Source: Bacteroidales bacterium (lineage in GTDB: Bacteria; Bacteroidota; Bacteroidia; Bacteroidales; UBA932). Taken from it: DNA of 64,000 nucleotides. Below the pieces are notes generated by a model. It was not told the DNA's origin. It worked only from the letters and a program-made list of their open reading frames with translations, and did no database searches. Below are positions 1 to 10,663 of this stretch, piece by piece (the first letter of the stretch is position 1; each line of letters starts with the position of its first letter). Made by a program: the position numbers and the translations under genes. The stretch spans positions 124,001 through 188,000 of the forward strand of contig JAFRRA010000002.1 of the NCBI GenBank assembly GCA_017428325.1. Direction: 5' to 3'.

Positions 1-627
1 CACATCTGAAGATGCGGATACCAGCTGTGATTTCTCGTTTGCCAGCTGTGCCTGTACTTCCAGAAGGGTACTGTAGGCCTGGCTTCCGGCATCCACCAGC
101 TTGGCTGTCCTTTCCACCTGTTCCTGAGTGCTGTTGCAGCTCTCGATGGCGCTGCGCTCTATCTCGCGTGACAGCAGTAGCTGGAGATAGGCCCTGGTTA
201 TCTGGATTGTAATGTCGTTCTTGACTTTCTCCACCTGCTCTCTGGCTATCTCCAGTGAAGTGGCGTTGCTCTTGATGGAATTGAGCTTTGAGAATCCGGA
301 GAAAATCGTGGCGGAAGCGCTGAGGTTTCCGCTTGTGGACATGCTTCTTTTATTCTTGATTATTTCCAGAGTCTGGAGGTTGACGCTCCTTCCCCAGCTC
401 ATACTGTGGCTGAGTCCGGCGTTGACGGCTGGAGCAAGGTCCCATTTAGACTGGGTCAGGTTTCCTTCAGCCTGCTCCACGCTTATCTCTTCCATCTTGA
501 CCTGCAGGTTGTTCTGCCTTGCATACTCAATGCACTGGCTCAGCGTCCAGGGACGTGGACTCTGGGCGTGTGAACTGACGCCTGATGCCAGAATGACGGC
601 AACTGATATGACCAACAATTTTTTCAT
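1..627 (-). CDS. TolC-family outer-membrane efflux protein (N-terminal part, runs off left edge)
   Basis: Read on the minus strand from the ATG at 625-627, the frame stays open for 209 codons to the window edge. It starts MKKLLVISVAVILASGVSS with a Sec signal peptide ending near HAQ. Next comes WTLSQCIEYARQNN, the usual opening of TolC-family proteins, then long Gln/Ser/Leu-rich amphipathic helices. TolC trimers form the outer-membrane duct for ABC exporters and RND pumps. Its place downstream of a C39-peptidase exporter and two GG-leader peptides suggests it is the outer-membrane partner of that exporter. A hairpin with a U-run separates it from the peptide genes, and it has its own TAnnTTTG box, so it may be transcribed partly on its own. 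The membrane-fusion (HlyD-type) partner is not in the window and may lie to the left. Confidence 0.85.
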   Translation of the reverse strand, partial: MKKLLVISVAVILASGVSSHAQSPRPWTLSQCIEYARQNNLQVKMEEISVEQAEGNLTQSKWDLAPAVNAGLSHSMSWGRSVNLQTLEIIKNKRSMSTSGNLSASATIFSGFSKLNSIKSNATSLEIAREQVEKVKNDITIQITRAYLQLLLSREIERSAIESCNSTQEQVERTAKLVDAGSQAYSTLLEVQAQLANEKSQLVSASSDV

Positions 628-673: not shown

Positions 674-702
674 AAAAAGAGGCTGACACGTAGGCCAGCC
701 TC
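674..702 (-). terminator. Intrinsic terminator after the GG-peptide genes
   Basis: Read on the minus strand, GAGGCTG and CAGCCTC form a perfect 7-bp stem around a 10-base loop, followed directly by five U residues. It lies 19-47 bases past the stop of the second peptide gene and before the TolC gene, so it would end the peptide transcript or reduce read-through into TolC. Confidence 0.6.
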
Positions 703-720
703 CATCTGAATCCGCAATTC

Positions 721-915
721 TCATCTTGCGTACATCTTCAGGATCTCCACAGGAATGTTCTGTGGATTCTGCCTGTTCTGGATCAAAATCTTTATTGCCC
801 TTACAAGGGCTCCTATGCCGTAACCCAACGCTTCCATAAAGCGGGATACGTCCGCGTCCTTTCCTCCGAAAACCAGGGTTTGCTCGCTTGCGGAGATTTC
901 AATGAAACAGTCCAT
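721..915 (-). CDS. Double-glycine-leader peptide B (putative secreted peptide precursor, 64 aa)
   Basis: The 64-residue product has a short leader ending SEQTLVFGG (Gly17-Gly18) and a predicted 46-residue mature peptide beginning KDADVSRFMEALGYGIGALV. Glu at -8, Val at -4 and GG at -2/-1 fit the leader type cut by C39 peptidases. The mature part is basic and amphipathic and holds GYGIG, a GxxxG motif. The ATG has an unusually good ribosome site for this phylum, AAGGAGG, whose bases overlap the stop codon of peptide gene A 11 bases upstream, so the two genes are probably translationally coupled. It lies downstream of the C39 exporter. Function is inferred: bacteriocin subunit or signal peptide. 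I do not recognise a named family. Confidence 0.65.
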   Translation of the reverse strand: MDCFIEISASEQTLVFGGKDADVSRFMEALGYGIGALVRAIKILIQNRQNPQNIPVEILKMYAR

Positions 916-926
916 AACTATCCTCC

Positions 927-1139
927 TTACCTGGTAGAGAACACGAACAGAGGCTTTCCCTCAAGTCCTTTCTTGTAGCCCTTGTAGAAATCTTCCCCAT
1001 AACTGGTGACGAAGTCTATAACAATACCTATGATCTTCGCGATCTTCCTGATGGTTTCGGGGTTAAGTCCCCCGCATACCGAGAGTTCGTCGTCTCTTGG
1101 CTCGACAAATCCGCTCCCTTTCAATCTCTTTTCTTCCAT
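927..1139 (-). CDS. Double-glycine-leader peptide A (putative secreted peptide precursor, 70 aa)
   Basis: The 70-residue product has a charged 24-residue leader ending DDELSVCGG and a predicted 46-residue mature peptide starting LNPETIRKIAKIIGIVIDFV. Its middle contains GYKKG, a GxxxG motif, and it is rich in Lys, Ile and Val. The E-L pair lies one residue closer to GG than in the textbook leader, so the cleavage call is good but not perfect. It sits 51 bases after the C39-peptidase exporter and 11 bases before peptide B. Equal mature lengths and a GxxxG in each peptide recall two-peptide (class IIb) bacteriocins. This is inference; the peptide could also be a signal. Confidence 0.65.
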   Translation of the reverse strand: MEEKRLKGSGFVEPRDDELSVCGGLNPETIRKIAKIIGIVIDFVTSYGEDFYKGYKKGLEGKPLFVFSTR

Positions 1140-1190
1140 ATTGTCAACAGTGTTTTGATTTCCGGCAGACTTGGCGCGCCGGATTCCGCC

Positions 1191-3329
1191 TTATGACCGG
1201 CCAGTCAATTCTATCTTATAGTCGCAGCAGGATGCGATTCTGCTGTCGTGAGTAATGACAATCACACATTTTCCAGATTCTTTCAGAGACTGCATAAGCC
1301 TTATGGAGGAGGCAACCGACTGCCCGTCCATATTGGATGCGGCCTCGTCGAAAATCATGACGTCCGCCCTGGAGTGCAGCATCCTTGCAGTCAGAACCAT
1401 TTGCCTTTCTCCGGAAGAAAGTCTCACTCCCCCTTTACCCAATCCCGATAGCAGTCCTTTATCCAGTCTTTGGATCAGAGGCTCCATACCTGCACGGCGG
1501 CAGGAATCCATAACCCGTTCTATCTCTGAATTAACTATGTAGCTGTCCCTTCTTCCCGGAGACATGGCAATGTTGTCAAAAATGGTGGCATTGAACAGGT
1601 GAGAGTTTTGAGGAACGGCAGATACAATGTTCCTCCAGCAAGTTGAATCTATCAGATTGATGTCAATGCCACCATAGGTGATTTTTCCGCTGTCCGGAAT
1701 GTAATCGCGGAGTATCAGTGAAGCGACTGTGCTCTTCCCGCATCCGTTAGGGCCCAGGATGCCCGTAATGCATCCTTTGCGGAACGTGCAGCTCAGATTG
1801 TCTATCAAGGCCTTTCCTCCGCGATATCTGAAGCAGACATTCTGGAAAACCAGGTCCTTTGGCTCTCCGGCCCGGGCGGTGAAAGTTTCAGCCGGGCCGT
1901 CCGGATTCACGTCGCTGAAGGAAGTTATCCCGTGTATTCTTTCAGAAGCCGTAACGGCCTCGTTCATAAGCGAGTCGAACTGTACCAGGGTGCTTGTCGG
2001 AGAAATGAAGAACGCGCTCAGGGTCCAGAAGCTGACAAGTTCCCCGAGACTCATCCTGCCGGCAATGACGGCACTGCCTCCTATGATGAGGACAGCGCCG
2101 AGGATCAGCTGGTTCAAGCCGCTGCTCAGACCTGAAAGCAACGCGGACCATCTGCCGGCCCTGTAGTTGCAGAAGGCGAGGCGGGAAAAACTGCTGTTGA
2201 AACTCAGCGATGACGTCTCCACACCGAAATGCCTTATGGCGGCCTCTCCCTCTATGCTGTCCATCACGTCGTTCTCGAAATCCGCCGCCGCGGCCATAAC
2301 CTTCCGGCTCATCCTTCGGTTAATCCTGTCCGCAATGCACAGAAGGACAACATACACCGGAATGCAGGCCATCAGTATGGCGGCAAGTCTGCTGTAGAAA
2401 GTGAACATCAGGGCGCAGACGCCGGCCAGGGTAACCGAACACACGCAGACGCTCACTATACCTTCGCAGATAAAGAGCCTTATCTTTCCTGTATCGGAAA
2501 GCCTGCTTTCAAGTTCTCCCTTGGGATAATCGCAGAAGAATCTCTCGTCCATCCTGAGAATCCTTCTCATAAATCCGATAACCAGGGAAGTGTCGATTGA
2601 AATCCCTCCCTGGATCAGATACAGGTCTCTGAGATATCCGATGAGCAGAGACAGGGGAATCATCGTCAGGATAACTGCCGCTATTGCCGCAAGGGCTGAA
2701 AAGTTTCCGGAAGGAATGGCTTTGTCTATCAGCATCTGGAGCAGCAGTGAATTGCATATCCCCATGGCAGTCAATACTATGGAACCGGCCAAAGCAAGGA
2801 TTACCTCTCTGCGGTGCATGTTTAGGAGTCTGAGCAGCCGCCTCTTCCTGCCTGATGTCTGATCTTCTGCACGGTATCCCTCTCCCGGGCAGACGAGCAC
2901 GATGTAACCGCTCCATCTTCCTGCAAAATCCGCAATATTCACCCTCTCGATCCTTTCTTTGGCCGGGTCCATAATCTCCACACAATCCTTCCCCACATTA
3001 AATAAAACAACAAAATGAAAATAACCGTCCTCCGATACAGTGTGGACAATGACCGGAGCGCCGGCTTCCTTCAAAGAGCGCAAACGTGCTATCCTGGATT
3101 CAATGTCCATGTTTTCAGCACCCTCCGCTTTCAGAGGTTTTGCGCTCAAGCCGATGCTTTGGGCCCCGTCCACAATGCCGCGGATGGTTATGCCGTCGGA
3201 AGAGCAGCCGCACTCTCTTCTTACGCGGCTCAGCGGCAGGCGTATTCCCCACCAGGCAGCAACGCTTGTCAGGCTGGCGGCGCCGCAGTCGTAAGAATCA
3301 GTTTGACTTATATGTATCTTCTTCCTCAT
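1191..3329 (-). CDS. C39-peptidase-containing ABC exporter (PCAT)
   Basis: A 712-residue protein that cuts GG leaders and exports the peptide across the inner membrane. The N-terminal C39 peptidase (about 1-140) keeps its residues: Gln9 (oxyanion), Cys15 in DCGAAS, His105 in YFHFVVL and Asp121 in MDPA. A six-helix membrane domain follows (about 165-440). The ATPase has Walker A GPNGCGKST, signature LSSGERQ, Walker B MIFDEA and the switch His in VITHD. I use the ATG at 3329 because C39 domains begin just before the Q-x5-C motif. A longer frame up to 3416 overlaps the upstream small gene and adds unrelated residues. Downstream are two GG-leader peptides, its likely substrates, then TolC. Confidence 0.9.
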   Translation of the reverse strand: MRKKIHISQTDSYDCGAASLTSVAAWWGIRLPLSRVRRECGCSSDGITIRGIVDGAQSIGLSAKPLKAEGAENMDIESRIARLRSLKEAGAPVIVHTVSEDGYFHFVVLFNVGKDCVEIMDPAKERIERVNIADFAGRWSGYIVLVCPGEGYRAEDQTSGRKRRLLRLLNMHRREVILALAGSIVLTAMGICNSLLLQMLIDKAIPSGNFSALAAIAAVILTMIPLSLLIGYLRDLYLIQGGISIDTSLVIGFMRRILRMDERFFCDYPKGELESRLSDTGKIRLFICEGIVSVCVCSVTLAGVCALMFTFYSRLAAILMACIPVYVVLLCIADRINRRMSRKVMAAAADFENDVMDSIEGEAAIRHFGVETSSLSFNSSFSRLAFCNYRAGRWSALLSGLSSGLNQLILGAVLIIGGSAVIAGRMSLGELVSFWTLSAFFISPTSTLVQFDSLMNEAVTASERIHGITSFSDVNPDGPAETFTARAGEPKDLVFQNVCFRYRGGKALIDNLSCTFRKGCITGILGPNGCGKSTVASLILRDYIPDSGKITYGGIDINLIDSTCWRNIVSAVPQNSHLFNATIFDNIAMSPGRRDSYIVNSEIERVMDSCRRAGMEPLIQRLDKGLLSGLGKGGVRLSSGERQMVLTARMLHSRADVMIFDEAASNMDGQSVASSIRLMQSLKESGKCVIVITHDSRIASCCDYKIELTGRS

Positions 3330-3399
3330 CTTCAAAAGAAGGGTGCCGGAAAAAAAGCCCATTTGTCCGAATTGTAGAAAAGTCCGGCACCCGTGGATA

Positions 3400-3579
3400 T
3401 TATGATAACAACACACTCAATGTGCCCAGGCACAGAAGAAAACCCAGGATGATGGAAAAGATATAAAGGAAAAGTGCTCTCCTGCCAATTCTTACCGCAG
3501 CCCATTCGGGGCTGGAAGACAGGTCTTTAATGAAGCCGTCCAGGCTTTCGTCAGTCCTTTGCGTTTTTTTCCTTTTCAT
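3400..3579 (-). CDS. Small single-helix membrane protein, first gene of the peptide-export locus
   Basis: A 59-residue frame starting MKRKKTQRTDESLDGFIKDL: a basic, charged N-terminus, then one hydrophobic stretch (about residues 36-58, LFLYIFSIILGFLLCLGTL) that ends the protein. It lies 70 bases before the exporter start on the same strand and has a well-placed promoter upstream, so it probably leads the operon. I do not recognise the family. Its size, single helix and place fit an immunity or accessory protein for the exported peptides, but nothing in the sequence proves that. It is the only open frame between the exporter and the promoter. Confidence 0.55.
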   Translation of the reverse strand: MKRKKTQRTDESLDGFIKDLSSSPEWAAVRIGRRALFLYIFSIILGFLLCLGTLSVLLS

Positions 3580-3704: not shown

Positions 3705-4211
3705 TTAGGCGGCTATTTTGCTGAACACATTCTTGACAAAAGGCAAGATATGTTCGGCCGCCTGGTTGAGCAAAGCGTATATTTTGCTCTGGGAAAGCCA
3801 TTCCGGTTCAGGAATCTGCATTGCTTCCAGAGAACTCTTTGTCAATGAGGCTATTGCTATAAGCAGCAATGCTATTTTAAGAAGGCAGAAAATTGCTCCG
3901 AAGATTCTGTTGACTCCACCCAGGACGGTAAGTCCGGCAATTTTTTCGATCGCCTTGCCTATGAGATGGCAGATCAGGATGATTACAAGTACTAGGATTA
4001 CAAATACCACAACCTTGACAACAGACTCGTCCTGTCCCTCTCCCAGCCATCCGCAAACGATGCCGGTCAGATAAGGTGTGAACTTGGATGCCCCCCAGAT
4101 GCCGACGAATACACCGAGGATTGAAACCAGCTGTGCTATGAAACCTTTCCAGGCTCCCCAGATGAGGGCGATGACGCCTATCGCGATAATCGCAATGTCA
4201 ATTATGTTCAT
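3705..4211 (-). CDS. CvpA family membrane protein
   Basis: A 168-residue protein with four hydrophobic helices. It opens MNIIDIAIIAIGVIALIWGA and contains the family's pattern of a glycine-rich first helix (WKGFIAQLVSILGVFVG) and a conserved NRIFGAIFCLLK segment before the last helix. CvpA proteins are small inner-membrane proteins linked to envelope maintenance; the 'colicin V production' name reflects E. coli history. It is transcribed away from ileS. Its closeness to the peptide-export locus is probably chance because a promoter and 125 bases separate them, but it is on the same strand and upstream. Confidence 0.8.
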   Translation of the reverse strand: MNIIDIAIIAIGVIALIWGAWKGFIAQLVSILGVFVGIWGASKFTPYLTGIVCGWLGEGQDESVVKVVVFVILVLVIILICHLIGKAIEKIAGLTVLGGVNRIFGAIFCLLKIALLLIAIASLTKSSLEAMQIPEPEWLSQSKIYALLNQAAEHILPFVKNVFSKIAA

Positions 4212-7300: not shown

Positions 7301-7780
7301 ATTTCATCTGCATTTGCTAACTTTACACAGAAAGATATCTCGGCGATAGAGCGCTCCGATGAATACACGATGCATCTTCCTGGCGGAGATGTGGTGCTCC
7401 AGAAGGGTGACTATGAGATTTCTTCCGAGGATATGCCGGGTTGGCTTGTGGCTTCAGAAGGAGCCCTGACCCTGGCTCTGGACATCCAGATTTCCGACGC
7501 TCTCCGCAGGGAAGGCACTGCAAGGGAACTGGTGAACCGTATCCAGAACCTCAGGAAAGACTCCGGATTCGAGGTGACAGACAGGATATCGGTAGTTCTC
7601 GAGTCCAGGAAAGACATCGCCGAGGCTCTTGAAGGAGAAGGCAATTTCTCCGATTATGTCTGCGCTCAGACCTTGGCAAACAGCCTGAAGCTGGCAGAGG
7701 CATCCGCTCCTGAACTGGAAGGCGCCGCCGAGGTAGAGTGGGAAGACGGAAAGACATTGAAAATTAAAGTTGAGAGATAA
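4304..7780 (+). CDS. ileS: Isoleucyl-tRNA synthetase
   Basis: A class I synthetase of 1158 residues that charges tRNA-Ile in the cytoplasm. The ATP site is seen in GPPSANGKPGIHHVMAR (variant HIGH, here GIHH) and GEKMSKRLGNAVDP (KMSKR rather than KMSKS). VWFDSGAMPYAQ lies just before the catalytic core's second half. Between them is the CP1 editing domain with TTTPWTLPSN. Length and KMSKR fit the long type 2-like IleRS usual in Bacteroidota. I start at the ATG at 4304; a TTG two codons earlier is in frame but less likely. The DksA-like and lspA genes follow closely, a familiar arrangement in this phylum. Confidence 0.95.
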   Translation: MGFAEYKKFDPVELGREVLAKWKKEKCFENVTKAREGSPKFVFFEGPPSANGKPGIHHVMARSIKDAYCRYKTQRGFMVPRKAGWDTHGLPVELGVEKMLGITKEDIGKKISVDEYNLACRKEVMKYTAEWVALTEQIGYWVDMDNPYITYDNRYIETLWYLLKDLYNKGLLYKGYTIQPYSPAAGTGLSSHELNQPGCYRDVKDTTATVQFEVKKDDRSAFLFKGASLDGTEGEDKSLEEGELFFIAWTTTPWTLPSNVALCVGPNIEYVRVASFNPYSGKPAVYIVAKELLGANFNPKAASIALGDYKPGDKLVPYKVLDSFKGKDLEGVRYSQLLPWILPEENTMRVICGDFVSTEEGTGIVHIAPTFGADDDRVGKQNNIAPFTLKDKEGVWRPMVDRTGKFFKVEDLDEEFVKTRVKDEYLQFAGRYVKNAYDASLAPDAETLDVDICVQMKMDGKAFKIEKHVHSYPHCWRTDKPVLYYPLDSWFIKATAVRDEMIELNRQINWKPESTGTGRFGKWLENLQDWNLSRSRYWGTPLPIWRTEDKKEEKCIGSVAELYNEIEKSVAAGIMKSNPLKDKGFVPGDFSDGNYFKIDIHKPYIDEVVLVSDSGKPMHRESDLIDVWFDSGAMPYAQETLKALGTPEFGQTADFIAEGVDQTRGWFYTLHAIHTMVSHTPAFKTVVSNGLVLDKKGEKMSKRLGNAVDPFEQLEKYGADALRWYMLTNAQPWDNLKFDEAGVDEVRRKFFGTLYNTYSFFALYSNVDGFTGKEAEVPVAQRPEIDRWIISYLNSLIRDVKACYDDYDVTTAGRMIQEFVCDHLSNWYVRLNRKRFWGGTMNTDKLAAYQTLYSCLEAVAILAAPIAPFYTDRLFLDLNAVSGRHSESSVHLTLMPEADESLIDKDLEDRMALAQKSTSMVLALRRKVNIKVRQPLAKLMIPVIDSKVQDQLEKVQNIILSEVNVKEIEYITDTEGLITKKIKPMFKTLGKKYGKQMKEISSAFANFTQKDISAIERSDEYTMHLPGGDVVLQKGDYEISSEDMPGWLVASEGALTLALDIQISDALRREGTARELVNRIQNLRKDSGFEVTDRISVVLESRKDIAEALEGEGNFSDYVCAQTLANSLKLAEASAPELEGAAEVEWEDGKTLKIKVER

Positions 7781-7802
7781 TAACAAGTTAAAAGATCTGA
7801 TT

Positions 7803-8753
7803 ATGGCAACAAAAGTGAAGAAGGCAGCCAAGGTGGCTCCAAAGAAGACTGCCGCCAAGCCGGCAGCAAAGAAGGCTGTTGTGAAAAAAGCAGAGCCTAA
7901 GAAGCCTGCGGTAAAACCTGTTGCCAAGAAGCCTGCCAAGGCGGCTGCGGCAAAGAAGGCCGTAGCCAAGGCTCCGGTAAAGAAAGTTGCGGCTAAGGCT
8001 CCGGCAAAAAAGGCCGTTGCAAAAGCCCCTGTAAAGAAGGTCGTAGCAAAGGCCCCTGCAAAGAAAGTTGTAGCCAAGGCTCCAGCAAAGAAGGTTGCTG
8101 CAAAAGCACCGGCCAAGAAGGTTGTGGCTAAAGCTCCGGTAAAGAAGGCTGTTGCAAAAGCTCCTGTAAAGAAGGTCGTTGCCAAGGCTCCAGCCAAGAA
8201 GGTTGTGGCTAAAGCTCCGGTAAAGAAGGCCGTAGTTAAAGCTCCTGTTAAGAAGGAAGCCCCAAAGGCCCCAGCAAAGAAGGTTGTAGCCAAGGCTCCA
8301 GTAAAGAAGGTGGAAGAGGTTAAGAAAGCTCCGGTAAAAGTTCCTGAGGTAAAGCCTGTTGCTCCAAAAGAAGAGCCAACTGTTCCGAAGGTTCGCTACA
8401 GCGACGCTGATCTTCAGGAATTCAAGAAGATCATCCTCGAGAAGCTTGCCAAGGCAAAGGACGATTACGAGATGCTGCGTTCAGCCATCACTCACCGCAC
8501 CAGCAACGATGTCGAGGACACATCTCCTTCTTTCCAGGTAATCGAGGAGGGCGCATTCTCCCTTTCCAAGGAGGAAAGCAGCCAGCTGGCAAACCGTCAG
8601 TACAAGTTCATCCAGAACCTCGAGGCCGCTCTGGTAAGAATCGAGAACAAGACCTACGGTATCAGCCGCAAGACCGGAAAGCTCATCCCTAAGGCAAGGC
8701 TTCTTCTTGTTCCTCACGCAACTCTAAATGTAGAGGACAAGGAGAGCAGGTAG
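7803..8753 (+). CDS. DksA/TraR-like protein with long histone H1-like Lys-Ala-Pro tail
   Basis: A 316-residue product starting MATKVKKAAKVAPKK. Residues 1-197 are almost only Lys, Ala, Pro and Val, including 13 tandem nine-residue units (AKAPVKKVA type, residues 55-171), like histone H1 or AlgP tails that bind DNA. Residues 198-316 (RYSDADLQEFKKIILEKL onward) match the DksA/TraR-like protein normally found alone, about 125 residues long, between ileS and lspA in Bacteroidota. The C-terminal KTYGISRKTGKLIPKARL replaces the zinc-finger cysteines; no Cys remains. Probable role: nucleoid or RNA-polymerase-associated regulator. The start at 7803 is chosen over an in-frame ATG at 7770 inside ileS. 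The fusion is the odd point. Confidence 0.85.
   Translation: MATKVKKAAKVAPKKTAAKPAAKKAVVKKAEPKKPAVKPVAKKPAKAAAAKKAVAKAPVKKVAAKAPAKKAVAKAPVKKVVAKAPAKKVVAKAPAKKVAAKAPAKKVVAKAPVKKAVAKAPVKKVVAKAPAKKVVAKAPVKKAVVKAPVKKEAPKAPAKKVVAKAPVKKVEEVKKAPVKVPEVKPVAPKEEPTVPKVRYSDADLQEFKKIILEKLAKAKDDYEMLRSAITHRTSNDVEDTSPSFQVIEEGAFSLSKEESSQLANRQYKFIQNLEAALVRIENKTYGISRKTGKLIPKARLLLVPHATLNVEDKESR
7965..8315 (+). repeat. Coding tandem repeat, 27-base unit, about 13 copies
   Basis: Degenerate 27-base units coding A-K-A-P-(A/V)-K-K-x-x are repeated in frame inside the H1-like tail. Third-position differences between units show they are not recent exact copies. Copy number is likely to vary between strains. Confidence 0.85.
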
Positions 8754-9695: not shown

Positions 9696-9745
9696 CAATT
9701 TCGGATAAAATATGTACCTTTGAAATAACCTTAATCAAATTGAAT

Positions 9746-10663
9746 ATGAAAAAGCTTGTTTTTGCGTCACTGTCTATTGCCCTGATGTGCTTTGTAATCT
9801 CCTGTAAAAACCAGAATACGGGTAATACGGAGAATCCTACGGTTTCTGAGGTTACAGAACCGGTTGAGGAAGTGTTTGTCCTTCCGGAAGTTGAGGATGT
9901 GTGTACCGTAATGGATGACCCTTCTTTCATAGCATTCTGCAAGAAGAATTTTGACACCAATGCTGACGGCAAGATTTCCATGTCTGAATTGGATACAGTA
10001 ACCATTCTTTTGTTTCCTTCTCCGTTCGCCGATGAAGAGGGCGCTCCTGCATGGGAATATGACCAGCTTTTGCAGTCCTTAAAGGGAATTGAATATTTCC
10101 CGAACCTTAAGGTCCTGATTTTTGAGAATCACCAAGTTACCGGTCTGGATGTTACTAAGAATCCTAAGCTGGAGCATCTGTATTGCGACGGCAATAAGAT
10201 TAGCACCTTGGATGTGAGCAAGAATCCGTTGCTTAAGGAGCTGTATTGCTCTTCCTGCGGCCTTACGGGACTGGATGTAAGCAAGAATACGGAACTGATC
10301 CATTTAGGTTGCAACGACAATCAGATTCCAAGCCTGGATGTGAGCAAGAACACAGAACTTACAGATCTTGCCTTGTCTACCAATCAGGTATCAAGTCTGG
10401 ATGTAAGCAATTGCCCTAAACTGGAGCAACTGTATTGCGTCAACAATCAGCTTACTGCTCTGGACGTGAGCAACCTCCCGGAACTTGGGACTCTTAATTG
10501 CGAGGGCAATCAGCTTACAAGTCTTGATGTAAGCAAGAACCCGAAACTGTCTTGGCTGCTGTGCCAAAGAAACAAGCTCACAAAACTGGACTTGACCAAT
10601 AACCAGAAAATGAGTTTGGCATTGGCCGATAAAGACGTGGAACTTATCGGTTACAAGAAATAA
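9746..10663 (+). CDS. Lipoprotein with EF-hand-like loop and leucine-rich-type repeats
   Basis: A 305-residue product beginning MKKLVFASLSIALMCFVISC, a lipoprotein signal with Cys near residue 20. A calcium-type EF-hand loop, DTNADGKISMSEL, lies near residue 71. From about residue 120 to the end there are eight or nine 21-residue units of the form LDVSKNPKLxxLYCxxNxL, a leucine-rich-repeat solenoid with many Cys. TACCTTTG at 9715-9722 is a -7 box 23 bases before the ATG. A longer frame through the tRNA genes is not credible. Likely an outer-membrane-anchored, surface-exposed binding protein; the ligand is unknown. The sigma/FecR/SusCD set follows on the same strand, but a link is not shown. 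Confidence 0.8.
   Translation: MKKLVFASLSIALMCFVISCKNQNTGNTENPTVSEVTEPVEEVFVLPEVEDVCTVMDDPSFIAFCKKNFDTNADGKISMSELDTVTILLFPSPFADEEGAPAWEYDQLLQSLKGIEYFPNLKVLIFENHQVTGLDVTKNPKLEHLYCDGNKISTLDVSKNPLLKELYCSSCGLTGLDVSKNTELIHLGCNDNQIPSLDVSKNTELTDLALSTNQVSSLDVSNCPKLEQLYCVNNQLTALDVSNLPELGTLNCEGNQLTSLDVSKNPKLSWLLCQRNKLTKLDLTNNQKMSLALADKDVELIGYKK

Follow-up and report, generated by a model that had tools for sequence, protein, structure and literature searches.

We describe here a predicted two-peptide secretion module in a stretch of 64,000 nucleotides (the window) from a bacterium of the Bacteroidales family UBA932, corresponding to bases 124001–188000 of contig 1 of an assembly of 1.95 Mb in 7 contigs. 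The module comprises an ATP-binding cassette (ABC) exporter containing a C39 peptidase and two adjacent genes, p1 and p2, which code for peptides with double-glycine (GG) leaders. In our reading, to which we give a probability of about 50%, it is a dedicated secretion module that would work like the class IIb bacteriocins, under the control of a predicted RNA pseudoknot and with a candidate immunity protein. Comparison of sequences across the family lends strong support to the view that p1 and p2 are partners and that this exporter serves both, because the two genes are adjacent in all of the 115 genomes in which both are detected, an exporter stands immediately upstream in 134 of 134 peptide-bearing genomes among the matches listed (156 in total), and the two peptides vary together.

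The comparison covers 299 genomes of the family, searched with profiles built from 26 p1 and 26 p2 sequences at an expectation value (E) of 0.01. By these profiles p1 was detected in 135 genomes, p2 in 136 and either peptide in 156, while the p1 sequence alone, at a loose E of 0.1, found relatives in 104. The genes of every adjacent pair lie on the same strand with p1 first, the median gap between the matched stretches being 32 nucleotides (nt). The position of the exporter was judged against 150 listed exporter matches, outside which 22 of the 156 peptide-bearing genomes fall; four of these 22 (G004, G047, G049 and G141) show the exporter in fetched loci. Seven individual peptide matches do not stand behind a listed exporter, two of them being a real pair on another contig (G163). 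In all 33 fetched loci, which come from 11 genera, were picked for having peptide matches and had their genes called by length of open reading frame (ORF) and BLAST clustering, both peptides follow an exporter in the same order. Over 32 loci, p1 and p2 distances covary after correction for ileS and exporter distances (partial r 0.26, 0 of 1000 permutations), a value that is unchanged when the p1 of locus L106 is cut at its first GG. The pair next to a C39 exporter, as claimed in a preliminary description made from the letters of the window, is thus borne out by its co-occurrence across the family; neither a missing or variable GG nor a lost linkage to the exporter was seen in the material examined, with profiles that include the GG and from which GG-less copies may escape.

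Within the genus of the window genome, 37 of 39 genomes carry both peptides. The remaining two, G026 and G037, gave no exporter match at E 1e-60; the clear empty site of the genus is that of G037 (locus L209), and true loss is not claimed for G026, whose contig begins with tsaB and is arranged similarly to the sister genome G024. Named relatives are metagenome-assembled genomes of rumen and gut Bacteroidales, Candidatus Coprenecus and Candidatus Cacconaster, and 22 of 80 named loci have both peptides by profile, with 2 more showing p2 only. One peptide alone often passes the threshold in genera g10, g5 and g21. A search directed at other families of the order matched the p1 profile in 5 of 393 genomes (three in this family, the other two weak and inside long frames) and the p2 profile in 4 of 324 (two in this family, two weak inside long frames), with a sensitivity limited to the extent that the p1-bearing genomes G047 and G066 gave no p2 match. 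No description of this pair or of its RNA element came up among the titles and abstracts listed by searches of open-licence articles in PubMed Central (PMC).

In the window, the order of transcription on the minus strand is cvpA-like gene, gene of a 59-residue protein, C39 exporter, p1, p2, terminator-like hairpin and tolC:

3705..4211, minus strand: cvpA-like gene (Pfam Colicin_V), the upstream boundary and a neighbour rather than a part of the module.
3400..3579, minus strand: protein of 59 residues with a charged N-terminus and one C-terminal hydrophobic, predicted transmembrane (TM) segment; candidate immunity protein or exporter partner.
1191..3329, minus strand: C39 peptidase-containing ABC exporter, 712 residues, recognized by Pfam domains and catalytic residues.
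1161..1190, minus strand: predicted H-type pseudoknot RNA in the p1 leader, with stem A at 1190-1187/1176-1173 and stem B at 1183-1177/1167-1161.
927..1139, minus strand: p1, GG-leader peptide of 70 residues (leader 24, mature 46) with GYKKG.
922..928, minus strand: Shine-Dalgarno-like AAGGAGG of p2, overlapping the p1 stop (929-927).
721..915, minus strand: p2, GG-leader peptide of 64 residues (leader 18, mature 46) with GYGIG.
678..703, minus strand: terminator-like hairpin immediately 3′ of p2.
1..627, minus strand: tolC (Pfam OEP), starting at 627 and running out of the window; probable outer-membrane route.

Beyond the window edge, tolC is followed by an adaptor gene of the HlyD/MacA type (macA) and then by tsaB, and on the other side a divergent gene that we take to be ileS begins at about 4298. 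Four features go beyond the preliminary description: the predicted pseudoknot, the conservation of the small TM gene within the module, a terminator-like hairpin and the setting among cvpA, tolC, macA and tsaB.

The exporter, counted from the ATG at 3329 in a frame that stays open up to a GTG at 3416, matches the Pfam families Peptidase_C39, ABC_membrane and ABC_tran. Its catalytic site, reported as intact at Cys15, His105 and Asp121, was confirmed by direct reading, Pfam and alignment; these residues and Gln9 are invariant across 24 aligned exporters of the family. The nearest solved structures by sequence are 4ry2, an ABC-type bacteriocin transporter, and then ComA entries such as 8hf4. Read-through of the exporter stop into p1 was considered and dropped: the p1 frame is open upstream in the window, but in G009, as we read it, the stop is out of frame with p1. 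Family genomes with no p1 or p2 matches (loci L211, L224, L225 and L227) hold another C39 exporter, next to which a separate membrane-fusion-like protein is encoded that shows 23–27% identity to the macA set.

The p1 leader of the window ends in ELSVCGG and that of p2 in EQTLVFGG; direct reading agrees with the first account on both adjacent leaders and on the GYKKG and GYGIG motifs. A cut after GG would leave 46 residues in each peptide, which holds for the window genome and fails as a general trait: the agreement in length is coincidental and particular to this genome, for over the 33 loci automatic cutting gives mature peptides of 28 to 49 residues for p1 and of 30 to 49 for p2 (the p1 of L106, L118 and L126 were cut at an inner GG in the length and co-variation sets, and by hand count the true p1 minimum is about 36). 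GxxxG is present in 31 of 33 p1 and 25 of 33 p2, and a small-xxx-small pattern, which is a weak test, in 33 of 33 of both. Invariant positions are the leader GG and the first glycine of GxxxG in 26 aligned p1, and the leader GG and the last glycine of GxxxG in 26 aligned p2. As for the amphipathic, basic helices that had been proposed, both mature window peptides have a net charge of +3 and the hydrophobic moment of p1 exceeds that of shuffled sequences (p 0.023), whereas p2 is marginal (p 0.070) and amphipathicity is significant in 30 of 33 p1 and only 17 of 33 p2. Across the loci, net charge runs from -5 to +5 in p1 and from -4 to +6 in p2, and no mature peptide among the 33 p1 and 33 p2 has more than one cysteine.

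The absence of a likeness to any named family held up, in that the window peptides match no family in Pfam or NCBIfam and no bacteriocin family in PHROGs, where p1 gave two weak unrelated matches and p2 none. Among the 26 p1, one has a weak NCBIfam match to the pheromone BlpC (E 0.00044), probably through its leader; among the 26 p2, one has a weak unrelated Pfam match. Among solved structures, the p1 profile found only 2 weak unrelated matches.

Reading the gap from exporter to p1 in the 33 loci revealed a recurrent pattern that can be drawn as an H-type pseudoknot, with a stem A of typically GGYG/CRCC, a loop of typically GAA, a stem B of 5–7 pairs and a last loop of 2–9 nt. A first finder, tolerating at most one mismatch in stem B, matched 29 of the 33 upstream regions, of which 27 share one register; dinucleotide shuffles led us to expect 1.5. 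Among 160 control regions, taken from upstream of five neighbouring genes, it matched 9. A second finder, with no mismatch allowed and G-U pairs accepted, matched 118 of 135 genomes against 3.0 expected from dinucleotide shuffles, all matches beginning 43–61 nt before the p1 start. These 118 comprise 51 different 5′ arms of stem B and 76 different combinations; the 5′ arm of stem A lacks GG in 9, of which two (G048 and G227) resemble chance or another fold. Several of the 17 genomes without a match are similar in outline by eye, and G039 and G042 are not. In the alignment A6 (87 distinct sequences, junctions over 1 nt and duplicates removed), 120 cells of the pair counts had changed on both sides against 43 in shuffles; as its sequences were chosen for pairing, percentages of pairing taken from it are circular, the unselected figures being those of the two finders. 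In A6 rows whose loop 1 is short, MAFFT set stem A one column off.

A stem-B covariance model was built from the A6 sequences and run over the 679 kb of the window and 32 loci. Its 27 best matches (at least 18.0 bits) each fall immediately upstream of p1 in a different locus; 25 of them were expected, being in the model, and those of L110 and L115 (E 0.57 and 0.86) were not in it. Six weaker matches fall elsewhere than in the p1 upstream regions. Within the window, the model matches 1159-1193 and nothing else at E up to 5, a result given by construction because this sequence is in the model. Over 581 kb around C39 exporters of other groups the model returned nothing at E up to 5. Rfam 15 gave no match at gathering score in 17 loci, among them L003 with the window's own leader, and its one weak match in window 880-1320 (E 0.25) lies inside p1 and away from the leader element. 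The predicted pseudoknot matches no Rfam family, and its covarying pattern is added by this analysis. In 20 of 30 loci measured, the named ones partly repeating genomes already counted, the element starts 0–29 nt after the exporter stop or at most 7 nt before it. The predicted fold probably controls the translation or stability of the peptide mRNA.

Similar leaders were noticed outside the family. In Cyclobacteriaceae, GG peptides near C39 exporters (L186 7761, L194 8558, L205 9901 and L208 9538) have a pseudoknot-like leader at about 55 nt, with stems GGG/CCC and CCCAAC/GTTGGG or similar; three were found among 19 other GG peptides tested and the fourth by eye. In L205 and L208 a second GG peptide directly follows the first. 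These leaders show little covariation and are unmatched by the covariance model of the family. Separately, palindromic hairpin-like words (GAGTGCGCACTC, GAATGCGCATTC, GGGTGCACACTC and ACCGGT) occur in 83 of 135 regions upstream of the pseudoknot, a count for which chance expectation was not computed; several loci have them where the exporter gene ends.

Other signals concern the peptide genes themselves. The AAGGAGG overlapping the p1 stop is found where it had been described, at 928-922, and is more than incidental: a Shine-Dalgarno-like site precedes 19 of 32 p2, 1 of 34 p1 (one p2, that of L124, being filed as p1 in this count) and 20 of 232 genes when eight neighbouring genes are pooled. 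In 18 of 33 loci the 130 nt that follow p2 contain a terminator-like hairpin, against 3.35 expected from single-base shuffles. Both features fit a tuned peptide unit. The Bacteroidota promoter pattern, in the consensus we presume for it, has 3 exact matches in the window and none near the module.

The 59-residue protein upstream of the exporter occurs in 15 of 16 close relatives, with a ratio of nonsynonymous to synonymous changes (pN/pS) of 0.27, and its gene overlaps the exporter start in five. A profile of it matched 18 of 33 loci, where the 15 seeds match by construction; of the 5 matched loci outside the seed set, 2 are close relatives of seeds. We consider this one-TM protein a candidate for immunity, because short proteins are among those known to confer immunity to two-peptide bacteriocins, such as CbnZ (42 residues) and AbpIM (55 residues) (PMC6957408; this and the other papers cited are drawn on in excerpt). 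Producers of bacteroidetocins are described as self-inhibited and as having no obvious immunity gene (PMC6671954). In the window, an inverted repeat, GGGTGCCGG...CCGGCACCC, lies at 3341-3392 (minus strand), past the small TM gene and ahead of the exporter start.

The genomic setting recurs. In 25 of 33 loci cvpA precedes the exporter, separated from it by nothing but small unassigned ORFs, and in 28 of 33 tolC-macA-tsaB directly follows p2; L101, L106, L109 and L128 keep the exporter-to-tsaB block whole, with cvpA and ileS on its other side. Exporter, p1 and p2 are flanked on one side by cvpA and on the other by a tolC-macA-tsaB unit that exists without the module too, since genomes lacking it show the join: macA-tolC-cvpA in G037 (L209), tsaB-macA-tolC-cvpA in G044 (L213), cvpA-tolC-macA in G043 (L220) and tolC-cvpA in G046 (L216). 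In the module-free G037, a phage-type integrase and an ATPase_2/AAA gene stand between cvpA and ileS (L209 11264-14142).

Presence of the module on a 44-row ileS tree requires 6 changes, against a mean of 9.9 in shuffles of which 2 in 500 were as low, a count that scores G026 as absent although its contig cannot tell. Over 33 rows, exporter distances correlate with ileS distances (Spearman 0.50, Pearson 0.65), a level that 0 of 2000 permutations reached. In the exporter tree most genera remain unbroken, the exceptions being g1, split in two parts, and g10, mixed with g12 and g21. The sequences thus point to a core-genome site and a largely vertical inheritance that broadly follows the species tree; an old single gain followed by losses is the simplest reading, the direction being one that a tree cannot prove. 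Mobile cargo was considered and set aside: p1 has no match in plasmid and phage collections (where p2 was not searched), and gene order around it is mostly kept. Averaged over 16 pairs drawn from 16 close relatives, pN/pS comes to 0.14 in mature p1 and 0.18 in mature p2, to 0.33 and 0.26 in their leaders and to 0.19 in the exporter; the pairs share genomes and so are not independent, and some synonymous sites are near saturation. By these values the mature peptides are under purifying selection about as strong as that on the exporter, and no sign of an arms race was seen in p1 or p2 at the depth of these 16 relatives.

Several known systems resemble the module in part. Like the class IIb bacteriocins (plantaricin S, lactococcin G, carnobacteriocin XY), it has adjacent GG-leader genes, GxxxG or GxxxG-like motifs in both peptides, a C39 exporter and a small TM protein as possible immunity; it differs in its Gram-negative host, its lack of a match to a described family, its core locus with TolC and adaptor and its predicted pseudoknot leader. 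In plantaricin S, the GxxxG motifs are important for activity (PMC6382864). With the bacteroidetocins it shares the Bacteroidales host, the GG leader and the C39 exporter. Those are, however, single peptides with at least 2 cysteines and leaders of 15–16 residues, encoded on mobile elements in operons with a TM protein and mostly a thiol oxidoreductase (PMC6671954), whereas here there are two peptides with 0–1 cysteine, leaders of 24 and 18 residues and a core locus. Bacteroidetocin identity was rejected on cysteine count, operon content and location. A thioredoxin-like gene (Pfam Thioredoxin_8) lies beyond tsaB in most loci, outside the module, and on the opposite strand in the window genome.

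The class II microcins of the colicin V type (CvaAB-TolC) offer a GG peptide, a C39 exporter, a membrane fusion protein and TolC, a chain described for colicin-V-like systems (PMC10352776) whose parts adjoin in 28 of 33 loci here. The module differs in having two peptides and in an adaptor and TolC that occur without it too. The EbfG/PteB system of Synechococcus likewise has several GG peptides beside a chromosomal C39 transporter, with four, different EbfG peptides and a role in biofilm formation. Rumen genomes of the Hungate1000 collection have unmodified two-component clusters with two successive core peptides, GG in most and GxxxG-type motifs; bacteriocin clusters there lie mostly in Bacillota, and the excerpted text of that report holds no such pair from this family (PMC13289728).

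Taken together with these likenesses, a working sequence of events for a class IIb-like module can be proposed. The exporter, p1 and p2 are probably one transcription unit, ending in a terminator-like hairpin in about half of the loci, and the pseudoknot probably sets how much of the peptide mRNA is kept or translated. Both leaders would be removed after GG by the C39 domain, and from the exporter the peptides would pass into the adaptor and TolC encoded next door. Once outside, the helices of p1 and p2 may pair through their GxxxG motifs and act on the membranes of nearby, probably related, cells, while the one-TM protein would shield the producer where it is present.

A number of points weigh against an antibacterial role of this kind. 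The module is core, largely vertical and under strong purifying selection, while bacteriocins are often patchy and mobile. The tolC and macA genes also stand beside cvpA where the module is absent, so that they are not dedicated to it. The window peptides lack a match to a bacteriocin family in the three collections named above, net charge varies widely and p2 is often not clearly amphipathic. The small TM gene goes unrecognized by profile in 15 of 33 loci, including all three of g10 and three of g14, which speaks against a universal immunity gene. Antibacterial action is proposed from the likeness to class IIb systems. Of the bacteriocin or signal pair first suggested, the pair with its exporter stands, and identity as a bacteriocin is weakened by a core, vertically inherited locus under purifying selection, unlike the mobile bacteroidetocins.

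Because inheritance is mostly vertical and the site core, roles in signalling, fratricide or biofilm formation keep some weight. One bolder interpretation, rather doubtful in our view, is that of a family-wide core peptide pair with a dedicated pseudoknot class absent from Rfam, serving a conserved signal or kin lysis and not warfare; the likeness of the four Cyclobacteriaceae loci could then mean that the combination of RNA and peptide is perhaps an older Bacteroidota theme. It is unlikely that the peptides are self-directed factors of fratricide or autolysis, lysing siblings or the producer in a certain growth state and kept off otherwise by the pseudoknot. The core, largely vertical locus, the conserved peptides and the RNA element upstream of their genes would suit such a role, as would the GG peptides of Neisseria, which are described as promoting autolysis with no antimicrobial activity detectable (PMC11798529, in excerpt), but no lytic enzyme or competence gene was identified among the recurring neighbours, whose unassigned ORFs were not scanned.

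Streptococcal GG-leader peptides exported by C39 transporters are pheromones, and an intercellular signal, a pheromone pair with its receptor encoded elsewhere, would agree with the strong purifying selection, the usually single copy, the recurrent site and the weak BlpC match of 1 of 26 p1, which is probably due to the leader. We regard this too as improbable: no sensor was identified among the recurring neighbours (unassigned ORFs and the rest of the genome not being searched), and mature p1, amphipathic and of about 36–49 residues, is closer to pore formers than to short pheromones. Still somewhat less probable is a role of the peptides in matrix, adhesion or biofilm, comparable to that of the GG-motif EbfG proteins, which need the C39 transporter PteB. 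That system is a C39-dependent precedent with a biofilm role in a bacterium with an outer membrane (PMC4997328, in excerpt), and the core distribution seen here would accord with it, but mature EbfG is described as having no homologues in other cyanobacteria, unlike the conserved p1 and p2, and GxxxG helices point to membrane action. A chance arrangement or annotation artefact is vanishingly improbable, with no point left in its favour, since the conservation of p1 and p2 adjacent behind the exporter across the family rules out a chance pair of ORFs, and selection and the pseudoknot tell against it as well.

In the fetched loci, genes were named ileS, ribF, greA, HIT and dksA as we presume them to be from their sequences. 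Elsewhere in the window, the protein at 7770-8753 (plus strand), whose C-terminal part we take to be DksA/TraR-like, has no Pfam match and contains a long Lys/Ala/Pro repeat stretch encoded by tandem repeats of 27/54/81 nt; its relatives measure about 290–318 residues in five close genomes and about 125–161 in others. At 9740-10660 (plus strand) lies a protein that combines leucine-rich repeats (Pfam LRR_4) with an EF-hand (EF-hand_5).

Most known two-peptide GG-leader systems come from Gram-positive bacteria. Here such a system is nearly fixed in one genus and apparently old in a family of uncultured gut and rumen Bacteroidales, on the core chromosome. It provides concrete targets, namely two short peptides that can be synthesized, an RNA of 30 nt and a putative immunity protein of 59 residues. 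If the peptides are antibacterial, the family would be a new source of anti-Bacteroidales peptides; if they are a signal, they would constitute a peptide signalling pair in Gram-negative gut anaerobes.

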